A model generated the notes under the pieces. That model was given only the letters and a program-made list of their open reading frames with translations, ran no database searches and was not told where the DNA came from. Source: Cryomorphaceae bacterium 1068 (GTDB lineage: Bacteria; Bacteroidota; Bacteroidia; Flavobacteriales_D; Cryomorphaceae). Taken from it: a stretch of DNA of 64,000 bases. Where the stretch lies: the NCBI GenBank assembly GCA_027214385.1, contig JAPVXR010000006.1, forward strand, positions 62,001-126,000, given 5' to 3'. Positions 62,044-64,000 of the stretch are shown piece after piece (the stretch's first letter is position 1; the number at the start of each line of letters is the position of its first letter). The position numbers and the translations under genes were made by a program.

Positions 62044-62087
62044 CAAAGCTAAAGGAGTCCCTTTTGCTATGCAGTAACAATTGTTAC
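62044..62087 (-). promoter_or_regulatory. Crp-type palindrome and -7 box upstream of DUF2892
   Basis: GTAACAATTGTTAC (62074-62087) is a perfect 14-bp palindrome. TAGCTTTG (62051-62044 on the minus strand) fits the -7 box. If transcription starts near 62039, the palindrome is centred at about -41.5, the class II activator position of Crp-type regulators. No TTG is found at -33, as expected for an activator-dependent promoter. The start site is estimated, not measured. Confidence 0.6.
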
Positions 62088-62101
62088 CACTCGAAAAATT
62101 A

Positions 62102-62284
62102 ATGGCTAACCAGCCCTCAAGAGCCTGTACCGAGCTCGACGAGGTAGGCGGCAATTATTCAGCTTGGAGTGCCGATGAAAACGGGATGTAAAAGAGTGTA
62201 TAGGGGTGGTGAGGTTTGAGCGAGCTGCTATGGTGGGGTTTGGTTGAGCGCAGAATGGTGTTTGAGTTTATCACGAAATGTGAG
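62102..62284. other. Intergenic, G-rich on the plus strand
   Basis: No gene seen between the palindrome and the promoter of the helicase gene. The plus strand is unusually G-rich and T-rich with few C from about 62190. Nothing else was recognised. Confidence 0.35.
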
Positions 62285-62315
62285 TTGGATTTTTGAGGGG
62301 GGAAGTCTATATTTG
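62285..62315 (+). promoter_or_regulatory. Promoter TTG-N20-TATATTTG for the PLD-helicase gene
   Basis: TTG at 62285-62287, 20-bp spacer and TATATTTG at 62308-62315 match the Bacteroidota promoter. It would give a leader of about 115 nt before the start at 62437. Confidence 0.6.
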
Positions 62316-62436
62316 GAGGGAACCAAAACTGATTAAGAAGTGAGATTCGAAATAAAGTTCAGGAATGAAATGAGAAAGGGGTGTTTGACGCCACGTCTTT
62401 CAAATATCCTCGCGAGTAACTTATCTGCTAGCAGAG

Positions 62437-64000
62437 TTGAATAATTTATTCACGGACATAGAATTTCCCGATACACTTAAGTATAGCTCCGACTCGGACA
62501 ATATCCCATTGGCTTTTTATGAGGAAGCTTTCCCAAAGGCAAAACACATCGATTTACTACTGGGATATTTTAGCACCAACGCGTTTAAAACATTAGCATC
62601 CTCATTTGCCGAGTTTATCTACAATGGTGGCACTATGAGAATAGTGACCAACCACTACTTTGCTTTACGCGACAAGGAAGAGCTTTTCGAAAGAGTGGAT
62701 CTCGAATTTGAAGATCGAGTAATTCCATTGAACGACATAGAGCACCTTCAGCGCACCTTCAGTAAAATTGACCAGCATTTTTTTGACTGCTTACGGTACC
62801 TTCAAAAAAAGAACAGGCTTCAAATCAAACCTGTAAAGTTCAACAACGTTGATTTAGCTCACGCCAAGGAAATGATTCTTTCAGATGGCAAAAACTGGAT
62901 ATCAACGGATGGAAGCATAAACTTCACTACCGCTGCCATTTTGAGAAATTCCGAAAGCTTTGAAGTCAATGTATCATGGACGGGAAATACAACTTTCAAT
63001 GCGCGTATTGATGAAGCTAAACAAAAGTTTGAAGACATCTTCAACGGTAAGCATGGGCAATACAGGCATTTAAGTTCCGATGAACTGGAAGTTGTCATTC
63101 AAAAAACAGGTCAGAATAAAGAGTTGGACGAGTTACTTGAGGATTCGATCGAGCTCAATCAGAACTCAAGTTACGGAGCAAAGGTGGCCGCTCTTGTTGA
63201 AAAGAAGAAAAAACGGTTTGACTACTATGTGGCGGATATCAAAGGTTTACCCCGCTTTCCTTTTAAAGATGGCCCCCGAGATTATCAGGCTGAAGCTTAT
63301 GAAGCTTGGAAAAAGAACGGCTACTCCGGTGTCTTTGCTATGGCCACGGGTACTGGAAAGACGATTACTTCGCTGAATTGTTTGTTGGAAGAATATCAAA
63401 AAACGAAAGTATATAGGGCAATTATAACGGTCCCGACAACTGCATTAGTTGAACAGTGGAAACAAGAATGTGCGAAGTTTAACTTCAAAAACGTAATTTC
63501 AGTTAGTTCGAAAGTGAAATGGGATAACAATCTTGCCTTTTTTAACACTGCTTCAAAGCTAATTGAACCCTCATATATTGTAATTGTAACCTATGCGTCA
63601 TTAACACGGCGCAAATTTCAAAGCTTCTTTAAGAAACTTCCAAATGACACTATTCTAATTGCGGATGAAACTCATAATCTCGGGTCAAAAGGAATCTTGA
63701 AAATTCTGCCAAAAATCCATCTTAAGAAACGTATAGGGTTATCCGCCACCCCACACAGGAAGTTTGATGAAACAGGAAATAAGGCCATTGAAGAATTCTT
63801 CAGTGATGAGCCTCCGTACATTTTATCGTATTCTATGGAAGAAGCGCTCAATATTGGATGGCTCTGTAGGTACACATATCATCCGCATATAGTTAGGCTT
63901 ACAGTTCAAGAAATGAAGAAGTACAAGGATTTATCTCTACAGTTACTCAGGATGGGCATGTTTGACAAATCAACAGGTGCTTTCAGAAGTACTCCCGAGA
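62437..64000 (+). CDS. PLD-nuclease / SF2 DEAD-DEAH helicase (3' end beyond window)
   Basis: At least 521 residues; the frame is still open at 64000. The start is taken as TTG 62437 (an in-frame stop lies at 62386 and no ATG between). Residues 1-210 form a phospholipase D-type nuclease domain: AHAKEMILSDG (His142, Lys144) and GSINFT (Gly159-Asn162), the HxK...GSxN half. A linker is followed by an SF2 core: Walker A ATGTGKT (Lys308), TVPTTALVEQW, ADETH (Asp410) and GLSATPH (Ser436). The combination points to a DNA-acting restriction or defence-type enzyme; no partner gene is inside the window. Confidence 0.85.
   Translation, partial: MNNLFTDIEFPDTLKYSSDSDNIPLAFYEEAFPKAKHIDLLLGYFSTNAFKTLASSFAEFIYNGGTMRIVTNHYFALRDKEELFERVDLEFEDRVIPLNDIEHLQRTFSKIDQHFFDCLRYLQKKNRLQIKPVKFNNVDLAHAKEMILSDGKNWISTDGSINFTTAAILRNSESFEVNVSWTGNTTFNARIDEAKQKFEDIFNGKHGQYRHLSSDELEVVIQKTGQNKELDELLEDSIELNQNSSYGAKVAALVEKKKKRFDYYVADIKGLPRFPFKDGPRDYQAEAYEAWKKNGYSGVFAMATGTGKTITSLNCLLEEYQKTKVYRAIITVPTTALVEQWKQECAKFNFKNVISVSSKVKWDNNLAFFNTASKLIEPSYIVIVTYASLTRRKFQSFFKKLPNDTILIADETHNLGSKGILKILPKIHLKKRIGLSATPHRKFDETGNKAIEEFFSDEPPYILSYSMEEALNIGWLCRYTYHPHIVRLTVQEMKKYKDLSLQLLRMGMFDKSTGAFRSTPE

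Follow-up and report, generated by a model that had tools for sequence, protein, structure and literature searches.

A PbeABCD cassette beside the SspBCD marking module in Cryomorphaceae bacterium 1068: a probable phosphorothioate-based defence locus

Introduction

Among the closest described systems is DndCDEA-PbeABCD (Xiong et al., 2019, PMC6459918), which has since been re-read as a CxC ABC-ATPase system (Rakesh et al., 2024, PMC10853773). It protects haloarchaea; the protection requires all four pbe genes and depends on phosphorothioation (PT), and virus carrying the PT mark is spared (PMC6459918). The pbe cassette is also known without dnd, and 320 of 553 pbeAC are not accompanied by dndCD (PMC6459918).

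The SspABCD-SspE and SspABCD-SspFGH systems are built around SspBCD, which places PT in one DNA strand (PMC8092258). The desulfurase of Ssp loci is usually supplied from elsewhere, a role in which IscS can serve (PMC8092258). In a survey of 2,678 sspBCD loci, only about 16% possessed SspE and/or SspFGH, and Pbe was unmentioned (PMC8092258). The lack of restriction genes has been read by others as an indication that PT serves purposes other than defence. Two further systems bear comparison. SauUSI works without partners and uses its own recognition domain to cut methylated targets; it forms a dimer via its nuclease domains, translocates along DNA and shreds it (PMC7913695). BREX type 4 consists of BrxP-BrxC-PglZ-BrxL, and its BrxP, BrxC and DUF4007 proteins are homologous to parts of Ssp.

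Organization of the locus

The window, which is the whole stretch of 64,000 nucleotides analysed from Cryomorphaceae bacterium 1068, ends within an open reading frame on the plus strand (62437..64000+), of which it holds residues 1-521. On the contig beyond the right edge the gene is complete, ending at 64656 with no internal stops. Coordinates past the edge are window-equivalent, that is, the coordinate in L002, the locus of this organism, plus 58000 (pbeA, L002:4437-6656). The features are:

62437-64656, plus strand: pbeA, 739 aa; PADLOC PbeA (PDLC02706), E=4e-292 over residues 15-732
about aa 30-200 of PbeA: predicted PLD/HKD nuclease domain
62860..62922, plus strand: PLD/HKD half-site HxK(x)4-6D ... 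GSxN, aa 142-162; residues near-invariant in 50 full-length homologues
about aa 280-720 of PbeA: SF2 helicase
63343..63363, plus strand: helicase motif I (Walker A) ATGTGKT, aa 303-309; K308 invariant
63664..63675, plus strand: helicase motif II DETH (DExH), aa 410-413; D410, E411 and H413 invariant
63742..63750, plus strand: helicase motif III SAT, aa 436-438; S436 and T438 invariant
64664-64894, plus strand: pbeB, 76-aa open reading frame between pbeA and pbeC
64891-67062, plus strand: pbeC, 723-aa Zn-hook ABC ATPase
67064-67585, plus strand: pbeD, 173 aa, predicted DndE fold
67826-68425, minus strand: 199-aa gene with a hydrophobic N-terminus
68382-68777, minus strand: nucleoside deoxyribosyltransferase-like gene
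68781-69920, minus strand: sspD (PADLOC, 4e-93)
69925-73080, minus strand: sspC (PADLOC, E=0)
73070-73945, minus strand: sspB (PADLOC, 1e-91)

The first four genes are tightly spaced, with 7 nt between pbeA and pbeB, a 4-nt overlap of pbeB and pbeC and 1 nt between pbeC and pbeD, and they constitute a PbeABCD cassette as defined by Xiong et al. (PMC6459918) and Rakesh et al. (PMC10853773). About 4 kb past pbeA, the contiguous sspB, sspC and sspD form one operon on the minus strand that converges on the pbe operon. SspBCD is therefore the neighbouring module here, and DndCDEA is absent from that slot.

A preliminary description, made from the window alone, proposed that a defence locus may begin at pbeA, and the genes to the right bear this out. 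The possibility that pbeA is a lone remnant in housekeeping surroundings is ruled out by the downstream pbe and ssp genes, and the restriction or defence reading stands. Methylase, ATPase or toxin partners had been anticipated on that side; an ABC ATPase was found, but there is no methyltransferase among the genes of the pbe/ssp locus, which rules out a methylase-based system, and the modification predicted from SspBCD is phosphorothioation. A tRNA-anchored island was also rejected, as the 40 kb examined contains no tRNA.

The locus resembles DndCDEA-PbeABCD in having four genes in the same order, encoding an HKD-SF2 helicase, a small protein, a Zn-hook ABC ATPase and a DndE-type protein. However, the marking partner is SspBCD, with the AAA+ ATPase SspC and the DUF4007 protein SspB, instead of DndCDE; the host belongs to the Bacteroidota and not to the haloarchaea; and the hook is CxxC where that of DndCDEA-PbeABCD is CxC. 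With SspABCD-SspE and SspABCD-SspFGH it shares the SspBCD marking module and a desulfurase encoded elsewhere (the cysteine desulfurase homologues of this genome are on other contigs), but its restriction part is PbeABCD. SspE (PDLC02783) had no match in the genome, which rules it out as a hidden partner, nor was it found beside the surveyed Bacteroidota ssp loci, and hence the restriction slot is open. Although BREX type 4 has homologous parts, the effector here is PbeABCD, and neither PglZ nor BrxL was matched in the pbe/ssp locus.

PbeA, a predicted HKD nuclease fused to an SF2 helicase

Judged from its sequence, the 739-aa product of the frame at 62437 is PbeA, an HKD nuclease fused to an SF2 helicase. 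Pfam detects the helicase half (ResIII, 1e-23; Helicase_C, 6e-12), and PLDc_2 appears only below threshold. The NCBIfam domain of DNA phosphorothioation system restriction enzymes, TIGR04095, scores 4e-118, which is under its cut-off. When both domains were compared by Foldseek, SauUSI (PLD plus SF2; PDB 7clg) ranked first. Because PLDc_2 is sub-threshold, the grounds for the PLD assignment are the conserved motifs, the match to the PbeA profile and the SauUSI fold match.

The preliminary description had already recognized a PLD nuclease joined to an SF2 helicase at the window edge, and the residues that it named proved exact and conserved in 50 full-length homologues. In the half-site, HxK corresponds to H142 and K144, and GSxN to G159, S160 and N162. 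Conservation of the PLD motif was scored by alignment columns, as a strict regular expression overlooked many true sites. By this measure K144, N162 and E173 are kept in all 50 homologues, as are K308, D410, E411 and H413 of the helicase; H142 is kept in 49 (the remaining one has X), S160 in 49 and D150 in 45. A complete helicase core had also been described. It is intact in the whole gene, with motif VI (Q661-RRGR) just past the edge, but no more than its first half lies inside the window.

PbeA resembles SauUSI in the fusion of an N-terminal PLD nuclease to an SF2 motor. In contrast, PbeA is shorter, has separate partners, and its chain stops after the helicase, without the C-terminal modified-base recognition domain of the SauUSI type. 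A SauUSI-like stand-alone type IV enzyme is ruled out by the operon partners of pbeA.

The PLD half is missing from cyanobacterial homologues of PbeA, which are about 490-505 aa long (L038, L039, L041, L043, L045, L047, L048, L050, L054, L055). No PLD gene was found near them by the strict motif pattern, which overlooks many true sites.

PbeB, PbeC and PbeD

PbeB is small and fast-evolving, and its homologues occupy the same slot in relatives. In PbeC, a hook (CKVC at 361) lies in the middle of the coiled-coil region. The Zn-hook criterion defines the CxC clade of ABC ATPases (Rakesh et al., PMC10853773), and a C-x(1-2)-C hook was present in 53/53 near-full-length PbeC proteins adjoining PbeA and in 0/8 DndD controls. 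The PADLOC PbeC profile gives a weak match (4e-15), and the LmuB profile scores higher. From these sequence features, PbeC is assigned to the CxC-clade ABC ATPases, distinct from DndD.

For PbeD, the sequence match is only marginal (TIGR04062), profile-profile comparison with one DndE is weak (E=0.03), and the protein has no match among PDB sequences. The structure considered was a model of the Hyunsoonleella orthologue (L024; pLDDT 85). Foldseek alone returned no significant match for this model, whereas structural re-alignment with the DndE structures 4lrv, 7x4e and 5wtu gave Z scores of 7.7-8.1, the next entry scoring 2.8. On the strength of the modelled fold, PbeD is taken to be the DndE cognate.

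Recurrence of the PbeABCD-Ssp pairing

The linkage between the two modules was examined in two sets. Among 395 Bacteroidota genomes, PbeA was present in 10, spanning 7 genera, and SspC in 22. Seven of the 10 PbeA-carrying genomes also possess SspC, in every case at the same locus (7/7). The hypergeometric P for this co-occurrence is 6.5e-8, or 8e-7 without Cryomorphaceae bacterium 1068, values that kinship among the genomes makes optimistic. Three of the 10 Bacteroidota loci lack Ssp; two of these have DndCDE beside pbe, and one has neither. The second set combined a wider scan with the Bacteroidota loci and comprised 66 PbeA loci. Ssp genes adjoin PbeA in 28 and Dnd genes in 14; neither was found in the other 24, many of which are on short contigs or are cyanobacterial.

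The distribution of the Ssp label over the PbeA tree requires 4 changes, 3 of them forced by well-supported branches, compared with 21.6 for shuffled labels. The labelled proteins fall into three groups: Bacteroidota; Acidobacteriota and Rhodobacteraceae together with two additional genomes of Bacteroidota; and Bacillota plus one Fusobacteriaceae and one Methanobrevibacter member, in which the reductase is BrxP-like (profile-checked in one locus). PbeABCD and Ssp are paired repeatedly, in several phyla and on two or more branches of the PbeA tree. Moreover, in four loci of the Bacteroides/Prevotella type (L028, L030, L031, L032), pbeA and sspD share a strand, and the pbeA start lies at -12 to +11 nt relative to the sspD end. 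This near-zero spacing would be hard to explain otherwise and points to joint action of the two modules.

The pbe cassette was found in none of 39 relatives from the same genus, family and order, yet it is 62-64% identical to the copies in Flavobacteriaceae and Weeksellaceae. It was therefore probably gained by transfer, as expected of a defence module.

Both modules are already known, and their combination is new as far as the literature searched extends, the coverage being partial. Within that coverage no name for an SspBCD-PbeABCD combination was found, and Pbe is absent from the discussion in a 2026 BREX survey that covers Ssp. The recurrent pairing offers a partner for some of the orphan copies of both modules.

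Other loci show variations on these parts. In Bacillota and Methanobrevibacter, seven loci (L042, L051, L057, L058, L067, L068, L073) contain a DndC/BrxP-like PAPS reductase, SspB, SspC and PbeACD, combining parts of BREX type 4 with parts of Ssp; PADLOC confirmed the BrxP-like reductase in L042 only. Ssp loci without pbe often encode an SF2 helicase as a protein of its own, about 540 aa long and related to the helicase half of PbeA (L130:2596-7108, L136:16845-18473, L137:3767-5311, L139:18146-19762, L142:14188-15804, L143:12469-14106). L130 also has an MzaB-like gene and, apart from the helicase gene, a DrmC-like PLD gene; it looks as though the functions of PbeA had been divided among several genes. 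In L132 and L134, two different SspB/SspC-like sets lie side by side.

Proposed mechanism and rival explanations

The best explanation of the gene content, gene order, intact catalytic motifs, fold matches and recurrent linkage, all of which are observed, is that the locus is probably a phosphorothioate-based, restriction-modification-like phage defence in which SspBCD marks and PbeABCD restricts. The biochemical steps are inferred throughout. SspD, supplied by a housekeeping cysteine desulfurase, would act with SspB and SspC to place sulfur at a short motif in host DNA, on only one of the two strands, and this host PT would be the self mark. PbeC and PbeD would scan DNA and read the presence of the mark. 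On unmarked DNA, such as that of a phage, their complex would engage PbeA, whose SF2 motor would translocate along the DNA. The PLD half-sites would then pair in a dimer and cut in the manner of SauUSI, and phage replication would stop. PbeB may tune or gate the complex.

Whether PbeA cuts at all is one point of dispute. Xiong et al. saw no viral DNA cleavage by PbeABCD, and viral DNA remained intact on Southern blots in haloarchaea (PMC6459918), an observation at odds with a marking and restricting pair. PbeABCD might instead stop phage replication without cutting, PbeA acting as a translocase or as a roadblock, with an HKD site that is regulatory or is active only in particular cases. The cyanobacterial and some other homologues, which at about 460-505 aa are helicases only with no nearby PLD-motif gene by the strict pattern, are consistent with this. 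However, the HKD residues are near-invariant in 50 full-length homologues from many phyla, and for this reason cutting is favoured; in addition, SauUSI, the top-ranked fold match when both domains are compared, is an enzyme that cuts, and Rakesh et al. argue for cleavage (PMC10853773). A non-cutting PbeA is rather unlikely. The direction in which the mark acts is also disputed. SspE requires PT (PMC8092258), and in haloarchaea Pbe activity was lost upon inactivation of DndA (C344S) and is therefore PT-dependent (PMC6459918), so that PbeABCD could be activated by the mark, like SspE, and not inhibited by it. Nevertheless, PT-modified virus escaped DndCDEA-PbeABCD (PMC6459918), so the mark of the invader protects the invader, and activation by PT seems unlikely. 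Dependence on PT and escape by PT can be compatible if host PT licenses the system while PT on the target exempts it.

It is also conceivable, but distinctly improbable, that SspBCD and PbeABCD simply lie side by side in a defence island, with SspBCD acting with another partner, for instance the deoxyribosyltransferase-like and 199-aa pair, and PbeABCD acting with another mark or alone. Solitary pbeAC are common (the 320 of 553 noted above), and the same pair also follows sspD in L131, a locus without pbe. The modules are convergent in Cryomorphaceae bacterium 1068, not on one transcript, which together with the three Bacteroidota PbeA loci that lack Ssp counts against a marking and restricting pair. 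Against mere proximity are the repeated adjacency of the modules, which is seen on two or more branches of the PbeA tree, the fused operons with zero spacing, the strong co-occurrence of PbeA with SspC and the lack of SspE. A further difficulty for SspBCD marking and PbeABCD restriction is that the known setting of DndE-type proteins is Dnd marking of both strands. The Ssp mark lies on a single strand, and PbeCD would not obviously be able to read it. The occurrence of PbeABCD beside double-strand and single-strand marking in related bacteria provides a clean test of what PbeCD reads. The wider proposal, which is about as likely as not, is that SspBCD-PbeABCD represents a distinct and widespread type of phosphorothioate defence: PbeCD, as a DndE-type reader, and a translocating nuclease of the HKD kind would together police the single-strand marks made by Ssp. 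This type would account for some of the SspBCD loci called 'orphan' and some of the PbeABCD loci called 'solitary'.

Flanking sequence and accessory genes

Upstream of pbeA, the G-rich intergenic stretch reported in the preliminary description is real and forms a local peak of GC skew (0.39-0.49, G over C, at 62075-62449). The promoter that it assigned to the gene found no support. Two sigma-70-like sites were observed against 0.8 expected by shuffling, for a consensus that is not the Bacteroidota one, and the only such site on the plus strand overlaps the pbeA start codon. TTG is the sole usual start codon in the pbeA frame ahead of the start of the domain.

On the other side, the deoxyribosyltransferase-like and 199-aa genes come after sspD in several Ssp loci, whether or not pbe is present (L002:9826-10777, L014:13268-14294, L131:6303-7320) and are an Ssp-linked accessory pair; L033:17385-17771 has the deoxyribosyltransferase-like gene alone, without the 199-aa gene. 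Farther on, the segment at 75331-75984 (L002:17331-17984) is repetitive, with overlapping frames on both strands that read as LTK/LVK-rich repeats, and is probably non-coding.
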